From assembly GCA_020853795.1 (NCBI GenBank), contig JADYYF010000109.1, positions 1 through 64,000 on the forward strand: 64,000 bases of DNA, read 5' to 3'. This DNA is from Candidatus Zixiibacteriota bacterium. GTDB taxonomy: Bacteria > Zixibacteria > MSB-5A5 > CAIYYT01. The notes under the pieces were generated by a model, which was given only the letters and a program-made list of their open reading frames with translations, was not told where the DNA came from and made no database searches. Shown here in pieces: positions 49,104 through 55,542 of the stretch (position 1 is its first letter; every line of letters starts with the position of its first letter). The position numbers were made by a program, and so were the translations under genes.

Positions 49104-50066
49104 ATGGCGCGCATCAAGCTCGGGGCCATTTTGCTCTTCCTGCTATCCATCGCGACAGCGGCTATCGCCGATCCGTGCGGTGACGCCAACAATGATGGTT
49201 TTATGTCATGGGGGGATGTGGTCTACATGCTGGACTACACGTTTGCCGGCGGCCCGCCACCACCCAACTTCGACAACGCCGACTTTGACCTCGCCCAAGG
49301 CTGGACTATCCGCGATGCCGCCTGGCAGATTTCGTGCATGGTGTTTGAATGCATACCGAGCCAGTACTGTCCGCCGGTCTATCCGCCGCTGGTCCCGCAA
49401 ACCGCGAGCAGCTATCGGATTCGCCACACCACCGCCTTCCCGGCGCATCGTGAGCAGTCCGTCCTCGACCTGGCCCTCGATGCCCCCGCGCCGATCGAGG
49501 GACTTCAGCTTGCGATCCGAATCTCTCTCGAAGGCGGCGCTGTAGCGACGGTCGACTCGGTACATTTCCCGCTTGCCGGCAACGACTTCTTATACTTCCT
49601 CAACAAAATCGCGATCGTGGACAGCGCCGATGTCGTTGTCGTCGGCAGCGCGAGTCTCGGATTCAGCGCTGTCGAAGCTCCGGTGCATTTCGCGCGAATC
49701 TTCCTCTCGGCCCCGGTCGACACGGCTTCGCGCCTGATCACCCTTGAATATGCCGACTATGTCCCGGCGCTGGCGCCGCCGGGTCACAATGATCCCATTC
49801 CGGCATTTGTGTTGACCTATAACGGGTGCTTTCGGCCCACCTTCTACGGTACCTGCTGTATCGTCCCCGGTGATGCCAACGGCGACGGCCTGGCCTCGAT
49901 CTCGGACGTGGTTTACCTGATCAATTACTATTTCGCCGGTGGCCCGGCGCCGTCAGGGTGCACCTTGCTCGGCGATGCCGACGGCAACGGCCTGCTCTCG
50001 ATTTCCGACGCCGTTTACATGATCAGCTACATTTTCCAAGGCGGCCCGGCCCCGCTGTGCACGTGA
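49104..50066 (+). CDS. Secreted protein with dockerin-like repeats at both ends
   Basis: Encodes 320 residues with GGAGG upstream. Signal peptide to about 22. An N-terminal dockerin-like pair starts immediately (GDANNDGFMSWGDVVYMLDYTF, then a degenerate copy ADFDLAQGWTIRDAAW). A beta-rich middle (about 95-245) follows. The C-terminus has a full pair: GDANGDGLASISDVVYLINYYF and GDADGNGLLSISDAVYMISYIF, each with the D-x-N-x-D-G calcium loop and the AGGPAP linker. Paralogue of the next gene. Role unknown; calcium-dependent assembly or cell-surface attachment is a guess. Confidence 0.83.
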   Translation: MARIKLGAILLFLLSIATAAIADPCGDANNDGFMSWGDVVYMLDYTFAGGPPPPNFDNADFDLAQGWTIRDAAWQISCMVFECIPSQYCPPVYPPLVPQTASSYRIRHTTAFPAHREQSVLDLALDAPAPIEGLQLAIRISLEGGAVATVDSVHFPLAGNDFLYFLNKIAIVDSADVVVVGSASLGFSAVEAPVHFARIFLSAPVDTASRLITLEYADYVPALAPPGHNDPIPAFVLTYNGCFRPTFYGTCCIVPGDANGDGLASISDVVYLINYYFAGGPAPSGCTLLGDADGNGLLSISDAVYMISYIFQGGPAPLCT

Positions 50067-50085
50067 GTGCACGAAAGGAATTTGC

Positions 50086-51063
50086 ATGATATCACGCATC
50101 ATGTTGTTAGCTCTAGTTGCTTGCCTCAACCTTGTCGTCCTCTCGCCACCGGCGGCAGCTCTGGTCTGCGGTGATGTCAATGGCGACGGCAACCCAACAA
50201 TCAGTGACCTCATATATATGATGAATTACACCTATGCCGGCGGCCCTCCCCCGGTCGATTTTGCCGAGGCCGACAACGACCTCTACCAGGGCTGGAGCAT
50301 CCATGATGCCTCTCTCCTCTGGTATTGCATAATCACGTGGTGTGGCGGCAAGAATCTCGGCTGTCCGCCAATTTACCCGCCGCTTGAACCCGCGGAGAAC
50401 GACCATCTGGCCATTCTCTACCCAACGTCGTTTCCCGCCGGGCATAACTCGATGGTGATGGAACTGGCGATCCTAGCTGATCAACCCTTCAGCGCATTCC
50501 AGTTGCCGCTGCAAATTCAGGTCGCGGGCGTGACAGCGCATGTTGATTCCGTCAAATTTCCGCTCAGCGACTCCTACTTTGGTGATGCGCTCACGTTGTG
50601 CGACAACGACACCGTACACAACGTCTTCATCCTCGCGAGTCTGCAAATCATGTCCAACCAGGGATACAGCCGACTCTGCAGCGTGTTCGTTTCCGCCACG
50701 CCCGATGCCAGCAACCGCCAGATCACACTGGAGTGGGGAGACTATATCCCGCGGCAAGCTCCGCCCGGACACGATTCACCACTGGCGCCGATGTTCATTG
50801 ACTATCTCCACCTGGAGGCTAATCGGCCGATACTCCTGCCCGACTGCTGTCTCTTCGGCACCGACCCCAACGGCGACCGCTCGCTGTCGATCTCTGATGT
50901 CGTCTTCATGATCAACTTCATCTTCGCCAACGGCCCGGAGCCGATCGGCTGCCCGCAAAATGGCGATGCGGACGGCAGCGGCCTGTTGACAATCTCCGAC
51001 GCCGTCTATCTCGTGGGCTACATCTTCAGCAATGGTCCAGCCCCGATTTGTGGCGCCCTCTAA
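50086..51063 (+). CDS. Secreted protein with dockerin-like repeats at both ends (paralogue)
   Basis: Encodes 325 residues, 19 bases after its paralogue, with AAAGGA upstream. Same layout: signal peptide (about 1-24), N-terminal GDVNGDGNPTISDLIYMMNYTY plus a degenerate second copy (EADNDLYQGWSIHDASLLW), a beta-rich middle with AHVDSVKFPLSDSYF and ITLEWGDYIPRQAPPGHDSP that parallels the first protein, and a C-terminal pair (SLSISDVVFMINFIF, GDADGSGLLTISDAVYLVGYIF). Cys residues near the end of each block may form disulfides. Confidence 0.83.
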   Translation: MISRIMLLALVACLNLVVLSPPAAALVCGDVNGDGNPTISDLIYMMNYTYAGGPPPVDFAEADNDLYQGWSIHDASLLWYCIITWCGGKNLGCPPIYPPLEPAENDHLAILYPTSFPAGHNSMVMELAILADQPFSAFQLPLQIQVAGVTAHVDSVKFPLSDSYFGDALTLCDNDTVHNVFILASLQIMSNQGYSRLCSVFVSATPDASNRQITLEWGDYIPRQAPPGHDSPLAPMFIDYLHLEANRPILLPDCCLFGTDPNGDRSLSISDVVFMINFIFANGPEPIGCPQNGDADGSGLLTISDAVYLVGYIFSNGPAPICGAL

Positions 51064-51236: not shown

Positions 51237-52619
51237 TTACTTGTGGATCCTCTTCAAGAACTCCTCCACCTCCGGCACACCACCCTGGAAAATCAGGTAG
51301 CCGTTGTAAGGCTCGCGCTCGGTGATTTCCTCGGCCACCGGCGTCAACATGATTTGCTTGACTTCTTCCAGATCCGAGGTCTGACCCAACGCCCAGCCAA
51401 GCTTGATGTAGGCCACTTCCGGCAGCATATTCGCCAGCGGAATAATCCCCTTGCTCATCAGGTCACGGCCCGTATCGTACACGAACATGTGCACATAGCC
51501 CCACAACGTCTGCACTGTCATGTACACCGCCACCCCCTCCTTCTGGCAGCGCTCGATCGCCGGATAGAGCGGTTTGTTGACGTGCCCCAGTCCCGTGCCC
51601 GCGATCACAATCCCCTTATAGCCGTTATCGATCAGCGAGGTGATCATATCCGGCATCATGTTCGGATAGTAATACACTAGCGCCACCTTCTCTTCGAAAT
51701 ACGGCTTGATCGTCACCTGGCGGTCGCGCCGCCGCCGATTGTAGTTGGTCTTGATCGGGGTGATTTTCTGGCGGTCGACCATCGCCAGCGGCATATCACT
51801 GATCGTCCGAAACGTCGACCGGTAGGAGGAATGCATCTTCCGCACCCGCGTGCCGCGATGCAGCAGGCCGTACTCATCCGACGTCGGTCCGAACATACAC
51901 ACCATCACCTCGGCAATATCCGACTCCGCCGCCGTCTTGGTGGCATGCATCAAATTCAGCGCCGCATCCGAGGACGGACGGTCCGATGACCGCTGCGATC
52001 CGACCATGACGATCGGCACGGGCGAATTCTGCACCATGAACGCCAGCGCGCTCGCCGTGTGGTGCATCGTGTCGGTGCCGTGGCCGATCACGATCCCGTC
52101 GATTCCCTTCTCGATTTCCTTGCCGATCGAAATCGCCAGCGTCTTGTATTGCTCCGGCCCCATATTCTCGCTGAACACCGCGAACAGTTTCTCCGTGGTC
52201 AGATTGCAGATGTCCGCCAGTTCCGGCACCGCGCCGTACAATTCACCCGGTGAAAATGCCGGAATCACCGCGCCGGTACGATAATCAAGACGCGAGGCAA
52301 TCGTGCCGCCGGTGCCGAGCAACTTGACGCTTGGCTTGCCCGGATGCACCGGAAACTCCTTCTCCGGTATCTTATAGTGCGCCTCTTTGTAGCCCTCCTC
52401 CGTCATCGCCGTGATAGTGGACGTCGCGATGCCGATATTGTACCCCGAGGCCAGCTTCACCACAATGTGCTCATCGTCGTCGTTTTCGCTGCGCGGCAGC
52501 AAAATACCTTTGAACTCCCCACGCGTCGTCTCGACCTTGGTCTGGCTCCAAACCCGCGCATTGAACTTCTGCAGTGTCGCCAGCGCCTGTCCCTTGTAAC
52601 CCTTGTATAAATCAACCAC
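51237..52619 (-). CDS. gatD: Glu-tRNA(Gln) amidotransferase subunit D, archaeal type
   Basis: Encodes 460 residues from a GTG that overlaps the gatE stop by eight bases. N-terminal beta-barrel-like domain (about 1-85, with FKGILLPRSENDDDEHIVVKL) then an asparaginase-type domain: LLGTGGTIASRLDYRTGAV (first catalytic Thr) and VIGHGTDTMHHTASAL (second Thr-Asp pair), with KTNYNRR and GTGLGHVN later. This is the archaeal GatD layout, which releases ammonia from Gln or Asn for GatE; plain bacterial asparaginases lack the N-terminal domain. It pairs with gatE directly upstream. Confidence 0.93.
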   Translation of the reverse strand: MVDLYKGYKGQALATLQKFNARVWSQTKVETTRGEFKGILLPRSENDDDEHIVVKLASGYNIGIATSTITAMTEEGYKEAHYKIPEKEFPVHPGKPSVKLLGTGGTIASRLDYRTGAVIPAFSPGELYGAVPELADICNLTTEKLFAVFSENMGPEQYKTLAISIGKEIEKGIDGIVIGHGTDTMHHTASALAFMVQNSPVPIVMVGSQRSSDRPSSDAALNLMHATKTAAESDIAEVMVCMFGPTSDEYGLLHRGTRVRKMHSSYRSTFRTISDMPLAMVDRQKITPIKTNYNRRRRDRQVTIKPYFEEKVALVYYYPNMMPDMITSLIDNGYKGIVIAGTGLGHVNKPLYPAIERCQKEGVAVYMTVQTLWGYVHMFVYDTGRDLMSKGIIPLANMLPEVAYIKLGWALGQTSDLEEVKQIMLTPVAEEITEREPYNGYLIFQGGVPEVEEFLKRIHK

Positions 52620-54594
52620 GGTTGATCACCTCCACCACCCGATGCTGCAACTCCCGCAGCGACACATTCCCGACCGCCCGCTTGCGCAATTGTCCCATGA
52701 TCCAGCGCGCCTCTGCCTCCCGGTCACTGTCGTAGGCAATCTCACCGAACTTGCGCCGCAGCGCCGGCAGATATTCCAAAATCTGATCGATGCTTTGCTC
52801 CTTGAATTCGATCGTGATCAGCACCGACTGCAAATCCATGTTGGGATGGTCGTACACCACCGGCAGCATCTTCTTGAGAATCTCGTTACTCAAGCGGCGC
52901 TCCTTCACGAAACGGAACAACTGCCGCACCCTCTCATAGTCAAAGTCGGGCGGAGCTTTGCGCGTCCCCTGCAGATGTTTGAGCGTATGCGCCAGCAGTG
53001 TCGCCACGAATCGCGGCGACTGCTCGCTCTCGGCGACAATCGTTTCGATCAGCGGCACCAGGTTGTTGCGCAGCAAGTACGAGAAGGCGTCCTCCGGCAC
53101 CTGCCATTCGCGCAGTTGTTTGAACCGTTCGGCGATGCTGACCGGCAGGTGTTTCCGCTTCTCGACGATCACGTCATCATCAATCGAGATCGGCGCCGAG
53201 TCGGTGTCAGGGTACATGCGATCCGGCCCCGGAAGGACACGTTCAAATATCGTCGTGCCGTCCGGCAAGCCTTTGCGCGTTTCGTTCGGTACACCCTGCA
53301 GTGCAATCTTACAGCGCTCCTCGATAGTCTCGATCGCCATCGCCACATCGTCCGGCGGCCCCCACACGACGATCTGCGCGTCGCCCACCGTCGCGCCCAC
53401 ATACTGCCGGATATCCACCAACTCCTGCTCGTCCCCGAACAGGTGCAACTGCTCCGAATGCAGCATATTCGGCCGCTCCAGGCACGCGATCACTTTGAGC
53501 CGGTCGCTCAGTTCATCCGCGAACATCCGCTCCGGCTGTGTGAAAAAGCTAAGTATTCCCTCAAAGTGCGGCAGGTTGACCGCCACCAATTTCCACCCAC
53601 GCGACTTCACTCGCTTGATCGCTTTCTGCTCACGCGGTAACAGGTCCGCATCGAGTTCCTTGTGCGTCACCGACCAGGTCTTGGGATCAAGCCCGCGCCG
53701 CAAGAGTTCGTCGCGGATGAGAAGCAGCGCCCACTGCCGAAACGCCTCATTATGCACCAAGTTCGGAATCCAGCGAATATGTGCCACGCCCTTGATCTCG
53801 ACCCGCGTTCCGCCGGTGACGCTGACATTGACATCCTCGCGCGCCGCGCCGATGCCGACCCGCACCTTGCCCGAGGAGCGCGCCAGAAACCGCAAGTAAT
53901 GTGCCGCCTCCGCCGCTTCATCGGGGGTGAGCAGATCAGGGTAGGTCACGGTCTCGATCAGCGGCATCCCCAGCCGGTCGGTCATATAGATCCGCCAGTG
54001 CCCGACATCCGACACCTCGCGGCAGGCGTCCTCCTCGATCGAAATCTGGATGATCCGCACATCCTTGTGCTTGAGCGGAATCACCCCTTCGATCCCGACA
54101 ATCGCCGTCCGCTGGAAGCCCGTCGGAATCGACCCGTCGAGATATTGCTTGCGCGCCACGTGCAGTTCGCCGACGATATTCGTCTTCAGCATCAGCGCGA
54201 TGTCAATCGCCTTGTCGAGCGCTTCCTGATTGATCCGAAACGGCGGTGTGTCGTCGAAGTCGTACGTGCAGGCGGTCTTGTCCTTGATGCGATAGATGAT
54301 GTTCTTCTTGGTCTTGAACTCCATCAGCGCCGTACCGTCATACTCGCCCAACTCCGACAGCGTTGGGCGCATGTGTCGCACTAGTTCGGCGTCGAAGTCG
54401 TCGTGTTCCTGATAGATTCCTGCCGGACAGCGGCAGAATAATTTCTTCTCGGTCAGAAGCTGTTGATGGATCTCCAATCCGCACTTGAAGCCGAGCCGCT
54501 GATAAGTTTCCGGTGTGGCCTCTTTGCGCGCAATCCAGCCCACCTGTTGTTTGGTCTTCTCAAAATTCGCTGCTGCGTCAAATCGCTGTGCCAT
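52612..54594 (-). CDS. gatE: Glu-tRNA(Gln) amidotransferase subunit E, archaeal type
   Basis: Encodes 660 residues from the ATG at 54594. Cradle domain: RLGFKCGLEIHQQLLTEKKLFCRCP, MRPTLSELGEYDGTALMEF, CTYDFDDTPPFRINQEAL, YLDGSIPTGFQRTAIVG and VSVTGGTRVEIKGVAHI. An AspRS-like insertion (GAD, about 375-480) is present, which separates GatE from bacterial GatB, and a helical and YqeY-like tail follows (about 530-660). Length matches archaeal GatE (about 620-640), slightly longer. With GatD it converts Glu-tRNA(Gln) to Gln-tRNA(Gln). An apparent -10/-35 pair lies just upstream. Confidence 0.93.
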   Translation of the reverse strand: MAQRFDAAANFEKTKQQVGWIARKEATPETYQRLGFKCGLEIHQQLLTEKKLFCRCPAGIYQEHDDFDAELVRHMRPTLSELGEYDGTALMEFKTKKNIIYRIKDKTACTYDFDDTPPFRINQEALDKAIDIALMLKTNIVGELHVARKQYLDGSIPTGFQRTAIVGIEGVIPLKHKDVRIIQISIEEDACREVSDVGHWRIYMTDRLGMPLIETVTYPDLLTPDEAAEAAHYLRFLARSSGKVRVGIGAAREDVNVSVTGGTRVEIKGVAHIRWIPNLVHNEAFRQWALLLIRDELLRRGLDPKTWSVTHKELDADLLPREQKAIKRVKSRGWKLVAVNLPHFEGILSFFTQPERMFADELSDRLKVIACLERPNMLHSEQLHLFGDEQELVDIRQYVGATVGDAQIVVWGPPDDVAMAIETIEERCKIALQGVPNETRKGLPDGTTIFERVLPGPDRMYPDTDSAPISIDDDVIVEKRKHLPVSIAERFKQLREWQVPEDAFSYLLRNNLVPLIETIVAESEQSPRFVATLLAHTLKHLQGTRKAPPDFDYERVRQLFRFVKERRLSNEILKKMLPVVYDHPNMDLQSVLITIEFKEQSIDQILEYLPALRRKFGEIAYDSDREAEARWIMGQLRKRAVGNVSLRELQHRVVEVINRG

Positions 54595-54603
54595 AATGCA
54601 GAG

Positions 54604-54632
54604 AACATAGGCAATTTCCCCGCCCTTTACAA
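54604..54632 (-). promoter_or_regulatory. Promoter candidate for gatE-gatD, near-leaderless
   Basis: On the minus strand: TTGTAA, 17 bases, TATGTT; the start point would fall about 3 bases before the ATG at 54594. No Shine-Dalgarno sequence is visible. Confidence 0.5.
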
Positions 54633-54717
54633 GCCTCTTGCCCGGCCATTTTTGACCACTGGAATCACCAGTTGCTCCGATTTGCAGTGGCTGAACGCGT
54701 GCGGTCAAAGCCGGCAG

Positions 54718-54870: not shown

Positions 54871-55542
54871 TCACGAAATGTACCTCATGTACTGCGCCTG
54901 AATGACCCACTTGCCGTCAACGCACTCCAGGCAGTAAAGCCACCCGCTGCCGGAGAGTCCCTCCTGTTGCTGGGCCACATAGATCAACGCCTGGGTGCGC
55001 TCTTCGTCGAATCCTACGCGAGAGACTGTGGTAATACCGATGTATCTTGGATAGACCCGATAGAAGGCCTCCCAGAAGCCGTCTTCGTCGGCCTCATATT
55101 GATCATCTTCTCCACCAGCCATCAATCGATAACCGAAGTCAAATACAAATCTGCGGCTGAGCCACTCCCCACCGAAGTTCTTGACCACGAAATCGTCAAA
55201 GGTCTCAAGCTTCAGTAGCTGCCATTGCTTCTGGATCGTATAATAGAGCTCGTCGCGATGAAGGTCGCGGAGACTCAGGTCGCCGCTTGTCAACGGATCG
55301 ATGACGACCTTCAATGTATCGTGTTCTACTTCATTGATTCCAGTGAACGCCTCAATCTCCGAGTGTGGTCCGTCCACGTTGACCAGTTTGTTGGCGATCA
55401 CGAGGGACATGATCTCGTATTCGATGTCCTCGATCTCCCGCGATACCTTGATTCTCTTGCGTTCGGTCGATTCGCTCAATACGGCAGCGCAGAAGCAGAA
55501 GCCTATGACTGCCGTCGCAACTGCAAAGGCTTGGACTCTCAT
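54871..55542 (-). CDS. Secreted protein of unknown function
   Basis: Encodes 223 residues. N-terminal signal peptide (about 1-23), then a helical, charged stretch (STERKRIKVSREIEDIEYEIMSLVIANKL) and a mixed domain rich in Asp, Glu, Tyr and Trp (EDDQYEADEDGFWEAFYRVYP). The C-terminus (GSGWLYCLECVDGKWVIQAQYMRYIS) looks like the closing strands of an SnoaL/NTF2-like fold, which would fit a sequence that starts with helices, but this is only a resemblance. A monocistronic gene, as both flanks are long gaps. Confidence 0.7.
   Translation of the reverse strand: MRVQAFAVATAVIGFCFCAAVLSESTERKRIKVSREIEDIEYEIMSLVIANKLVNVDGPHSEIEAFTGINEVEHDTLKVVIDPLTSGDLSLRDLHRDELYYTIQKQWQLLKLETFDDFVVKNFGGEWLSRRFVFDFGYRLMAGGEDDQYEADEDGFWEAFYRVYPRYIGITTVSRVGFDEERTQALIYVAQQQEGLSGSGWLYCLECVDGKWVIQAQYMRYIS

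Follow-up and report, generated by a model that had tools for sequence, protein, structure and literature searches.

A bacterial-type GatDE amidotransferase in Zixibacteria and other bacterial phyla, mostly found alongside GlnRS

In the archaeal route to Gln-tRNA, GatDE works with a tRNA-Gln carrying A1-U72 and A73, and archaea are, to our knowledge, devoid of GlnRS. Like GatDE, the bacterial GatCAB is a tRNA-dependent amidotransferase, and its GatB has in common with GatE a kinase/transamidase cradle and a tail domain; the two systems differ in that GatD is of the asparaginase type and GatA an amidase, and in the AspRS-like insertion of GatE. Archaeal GatDE reads the D-loop and A1:U72 of the tRNA (PMC9499178), and U1-A72 is used by bacterial GlnRS and bacterial amidotransferases (PMC9976931). 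Two reviews, of 2021 and 2022, confine GatDE to archaea (PMC8007984, PMC9499178), and the second argues from this restriction about LUCA and the archaeal lack of GlnRS. GlnRS alongside the amidotransferase GatCAB is described for Thermus, Deinococcus and Bdellovibrio (PMC4206432, PMC3927822); the genome studied here differs in that GatDE too, beyond GatCAB, coexists with GlnRS. We found no paper on, or biochemistry of, a bacterial GatDE in the literature searched. Many of the genes concerned probably carry GatD or GatE labels in protein databases already, and it is the recognition of a bacterial subfamily living with GlnRS that appears to be new within that literature.

We analysed a 64,000-nucleotide stretch (the window) of the genome of a Candidatus Zixiibacteriota bacterium, in which an initial annotation had described overlapping gatD and gatE genes of archaeal architecture. 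This description held, as both genes pass NCBIfam cut-offs, GatD has the GatD_N domain and the two frames, on the minus strand, overlap by 8 bp. gatD (51237–52619) has a GTG start and encodes a 460-aa glutaminase/asparaginase-like subunit that scores 518 and 508 bits against NF003217 and TIGR02153 (cut-offs 310 and 324), with GatD_N (Pfam PF18195; about 52413–52547) preceding the N (PF00710; about 51759–52328) and C (PF17763; about 51348–51689) asparaginase domains. gatE (52612–54594), encoding the kinase/transamidase subunit, reaches 495 and 429 bits against NF003107 and TIGR00134 (cut-offs 456 and 320), and GatB_N spans its catalytic region in a Pfam scan. Its AspRS-like (GAD) insertion, at approximately 53293–53682 (residues about 343–472 of the 698-aa frame), aligns with archaeal GatE and lies outside the GatB matches, and its GatB_YqeY-like tail domain (52663–53049; residues about 554–682), which at 23.4 bits falls slightly below the PF02637 gathering cut-off of 27, is modelled with confidence as a helical bundle by AlphaFold2. 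The 8 bp shared by the end of gatE and the beginning of gatD (52612–52619; sequence around CGTGGTTGA) suggest co-translation. Alignments to relatives point to ATG 54594 as the likely gatE start; position 54632, where the initial annotation had ended the locus, is out of frame, and the open frame extends upstream as far as TTG 54708 (minus strand, 52612–54708), a possible alternative start. No clear ribosome-binding site was seen in the gatE start region. Both frames are intact, with a GC3 of 0.78–0.80 compared with 0.75–0.82 in neighbouring genes, pckA among them, and their overall GC likewise equals that of the neighbours. Nearby, on the strand opposite gatDE (49104–51063), are two adjoining proteins that look secreted and whose calcium-binding repeats (GDVNGDG...) are dockerin-like; upstream of gatE lies a short minus-strand frame without Pfam match (54871–55542).

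Among solved structures, the archaeal GatDE complexes 1zq1 and 2d6f match the pair best, over near-complete alignment length, and GatE aligned full length with the crystallised archaeal chains 2d6f_C and 1zq1_C. An AlphaFold2 model of GatE (pLDDT 88, pTM 0.87) had 1zq1_C (P. abyssi) and 2d6f (M. thermautotrophicus) as its top PDB matches in Foldseek, GatB ranking after them, and also matched AspRS structures weakly, as expected because of the AspRS-like insertion; alignment, model and structure search thus agree on the insertion that had been proposed from the sequence. GatD Thr106, Thr182, Asp183 and Lys261 align with Thr101, Thr177, Asp178 and Lys254 of the M. thermautotrophicus protein, and these four catalytic residues are kept in 77 bacterial GatDs (the first site was unread in two); among 110 GatE sequences, almost every catalytic-domain position examined is invariant. 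With GatD_N and an asparaginase domain bearing the catalytic Thr, Thr, Asp and Lys in one subunit, and a GatB-like cradle, AspRS-like insertion and tail domain in the other, the diagnostic domains, the fold of GatE and all catalytic residues tested confirm the locus as a genuine full-length GatDE. It shares with archaeal GatDE (2d6f, 1zq1) both subunits and the order of their domains, the fold and the catalytic residues, and aligns with it over the full length, but identity is 33–35% for GatE and 46–49% for GatD, the window copy belongs to a separate clade and to a bacterial host also endowed with GlnRS, GatCAB and AsnRS, and tRNA-Gln is U1-A72 in most of the GatDE carriers read, in contrast to A1-U72 in archaea.

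The host assembly (3.56 Mb in 215 contigs, 99.93% complete, 0.84% contaminated) also encodes GatCAB, which the initial annotation had singled out as a thing to look for, separately from GatDE, with GatB and GatA on contig C200 and GatC on C49. GlnRS, whose absence characterises the archaeal GatDE pathway, is present (745 bits, cut-off 426), together with AsnRS and bacterial-type GluRS and AspRS. All known routes to Gln-tRNA and Asn-tRNA are thus encoded as judged from the gene content, the discrimination of GluRS and AspRS aside. A division of labour between GatDE and GatCAB for Gln- and Asn-tRNA had been envisaged should GatCAB be present; GatCAB is indeed there, but with GlnRS and AsnRS both encoded such a simple split is unnecessary. 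The GluRS residue Arg358 (Thermus numbering), tried as a marker of discrimination, was uninformative, being kept in all 20 relatives tested, GatCAB-only ones included, and so gives no evidence for a non-discriminating GluRS.

tRNA-Gln(UUG) of the window genome has A1-U72 and G73, and its tRNA-Gln(CUG) has U1-A72 and G73. The A1-U72 pair of tRNA-Gln(UUG) is common to the genus-mate (G001) and occurs in none of the 28 other tRNA-Gln(UUG) genes read, the rest having U1-A72; no remaining tRNA-Gln search match in the class extends to A1. A1-U72 was therefore rejected as a marker for GatDE in general, since among the tRNAs read it is confined to the window genus, and because other carriers have U1-A72, bacterial GatDE cannot depend on A1-U72 class-wide. 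As a sign of a link to GatDE, the switch in the window genus is suggestive only. Across 24 genomes, a tRNA-Gln pattern search was discarded, its many matches being chance-like.

The initial annotation had thought a transfer from archaea or an ancient retention in this lineage likely; GatDE is not peculiar to the lineage. Of the 118 genomes of the class, 62 have a GatE above the TIGR00134 cut-off, GatE carriers number 73 when fragments are included, and in many families most genomes have GatE. At least 578 confirmed relatives came out of a scan across named genome contigs, and the best 80 of them are mainly from bacterial assemblies, with three from Thermoplasmatota. Labels among these 80 include Planctomycetota, WOR-3, Electryoneota (Hatepunaea), Caldisericia, Chlorobiota, Ignavibacteria, Zixiibacteriota, Fermentibacteria, Krumholzibacteriota, Bacteroidota, Aminicenantes, Cloacimonetes, Coatesbacteria, KSB1, Myxococcota, Acidobacteriota, Bdellovibrio, Eisenbacteria and others. 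Bacterial-type GatDE thus occurs in 16 or more bacterial phyla, 15 or more of them other than that of the window, a breadth that is clear even if some phylum labels of the assemblies may be wrong. Across bacterial neighbourhoods we saw no shared operon around gatE and no conserved partner except gatD. Some relatives show local variations: in L163 (4847–8365) and on contig C39 of genome G028 a single frame of about 1172 aa seems to hold both gatE and gatD and may be a GatE–GatD fusion; gatD is interrupted by a stop, through sequencing error or decay, in L023 (123–1502); and in two g24 genus members (L358 and L359; G028 and G044) glnS is found about 0.7–1 kb away from gatE and on the other strand.

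The bacterial-type sequences in a GatE tree of 99 rows group into a single clade on a long stem. When trees were rooted with GatB, from which GatE splits with 100/100 support, the window copy grouped with GatE, in keeping with its initial assignment, and the bacterial clade (99/98; 100/99 in a smaller set) was sister to, rather than nested in, the sampled canonical archaeal GatE (99/95; 100/97 after a haloarchaeal sequence was added). The archaea in these trees were one methanobacterium, one Pyrococcus, one haloarchaeon and Thermoplasmatota, with Asgard, Crenarchaeota, Nanoarchaeota and other archaea left out, which makes the sister rather than nested position provisional. The window GatE clusters with those of Zixibacterial families f1, f7 and f19, Bacteroidales and Aminicenantes, and the nearest copies of the pair as a whole are likewise from other Zixibacteria, Bacteroidales and Aminicenantes. 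GatE of Zixibacterial family f15 joins Fermentibacteria and Krumholzibacteriota, that of f2 joins Acidobacteria and the remainder fall elsewhere; the GatD tree is broadly congruent, with the same main groups. This scatter of Zixibacterial copies indicates repeated gatDE exchange between bacterial phyla, and the most likely reading of the trees is that gatDE came to the window lineage through exchange among bacteria, with no recent archaeal source. On a weakly supported GlnRS tree, the GatE state changes at least ten times and the window GlnRS forms a pair with the GlnRS of G002, a member of its family that lacks GatE; within the class, GlnRS appears to predate GatDE. Given that pairing, weakly supported as the tree is, a joint transfer of GlnRS and GatDE found no support for the window lineage.

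Some Thermoplasmatota sequences fall inside the bacterial-type GatE clade. Two archaeal genomes, G196 (L231/L232) and G187 (L234/L235), have both canonical and bacterial-type GatE, which suggests separate roles for the two types. The Thermoplasmatota bacterial-type gatE is followed by a gene for a 112–117-aa protein, two copies of which were scanned and matched nothing in Pfam or NCBIfam, and an archaeal GlmU-like gene (L408, L409 and L405; G196, G187 and G118), the latter typed by HMM in L405; in L405 and L409 a GlmS-like gene comes after it. Near gatE, L408 also carries the gene for the archaeal lipid enzyme glycerol-1-phosphate dehydrogenase, which marks the contig as archaeal. Seemingly complete or near-complete GlnRS occurs in Thermoplasmatota assemblies G118 (L404, 399–2087, minus strand) and G120 (L372/L406) and groups with Planctomycetota GlnRS (95); with GlnRS contigs of no more than 7.8 and 3.6 kb, misbinning is possible.

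Within the class, GlnRS was found in 51 of the 54 good-quality genomes with GatE compared with 12 of the 25 without (counts 51/3 versus 12/13; Fisher p = 6e-6, relatedness ignored). Family f7 follows the same pattern, also with relatedness ignored, with both genes in 24 genomes, GatE alone in none, GlnRS alone in one and neither in five, and GlnRS scored above cut-off in 39 of 50 named GatE genomes. By these gene counts, GatDE mostly supplements GlnRS instead of substituting for it. GlnRS was undetected in two GatE genomes of family f4, G022 and G007 (94% complete), whose CUG tRNAs have U1-A72; G022 has a single match to the GatE model, which elsewhere also catches GatB. GatDE may carry the Gln-tRNA pathway in these two genomes.

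The best explanation overall, which we hold to be probable though well short of certain, is a working bacterial GatDE, acquired among bacteria and serving as a second, salvage route on Glu-tRNA-Gln; its activity, substrate, salvage role and isoacceptor preference are inferred. Acting on glutamine or asparagine, GatD would set ammonia free, and GatE would use ATP to activate the glutamate side-chain carboxylate on Glu-tRNA-Gln and amidate the activated intermediate to Gln-tRNA-Gln. Since GlnRS is also encoded in the genome, GatDE would most likely be a second route beside it, converting Glu-tRNA-Gln supplied by an imperfectly discriminating GluRS; in the window genus it may serve mainly tRNA-Gln(UUG), which bears the A1-U72 pair read by archaeal GatDE. 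A further-reaching version we regard as speculative and rather unlikely: GatE would comprise two deep subfamilies, and the bacterial type, present in some archaea as well as in 16 or more bacterial phyla, would have evolved to work with GlnRS by repairing Glu-tRNA-Gln or charging one isoacceptor; in the window genus it would have driven tRNA-Gln(UUG) to A1-U72, so that the two isoacceptors of one cell are charged by different routes. The role beside GlnRS is the weakest step, with salvage our first choice and a changed substrate its main rival. That bacterial GatDE lost Gln-tRNA-Gln supply and switched to another misacylated tRNA or to metabolic amidation would accord with GlnRS accompanying it almost everywhere, which often leaves the indirect route unneeded, with the long stem that sets bacterial GatE apart from canonical GatE, and with the non-redundant roles suggested by the two Thermoplasmatota genomes that hold both types. 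Yet every catalytic position tested is conserved, two f4 GatE genomes lack a detectable GlnRS and no partner gene but gatD is conserved around gatE across bacteria, and we consider such a switch unlikely.

GlnRS and GatCAB might each be sufficient and GatDE redundant, a decaying acquisition kept beside them by chance. The presence of all direct and indirect routes in the window genome, the ten or more changes of GatE state on the GlnRS tree and the gatD split by a stop in L023 are in its favour, but intact frames and invariant active sites kept over deep divergence, and GatDE in most genomes of many families, render this account quite improbable. Direct transfer from an archaeon to the window lineage, which the initial annotation had put forward, is suggested by the archaeal architecture and by the Thermoplasmatota sequences within the bacterial-type clade; we found no sign of it and judge its probability very low, as the window copy sits deep within a clade of Zixibacteria and other bacteria, and a bacteria-wide subfamily is sister to the archaeal GatE sampled (Asgard, Crenarchaeota, Nanoarchaeota and others left out). 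For archaeal DNA binned with a bacterium speaks only the division of the assembly into 215 contigs; gatDE is embedded among typical bacterial genes with matching GC3, and the genus-mate and many relatives carry it, which upholds the bacterial host proposed at the outset and rules out mis-binning for practical purposes.

A widespread bacterial GatDE branch, usually with GlnRS, contradicts the archaea-only statement of the reviews and supplies new sequences for rooting the origin of Gln-tRNA formation. It also raises the question of why a GlnRS-bearing cell keeps an amidotransferase for the same tRNA.
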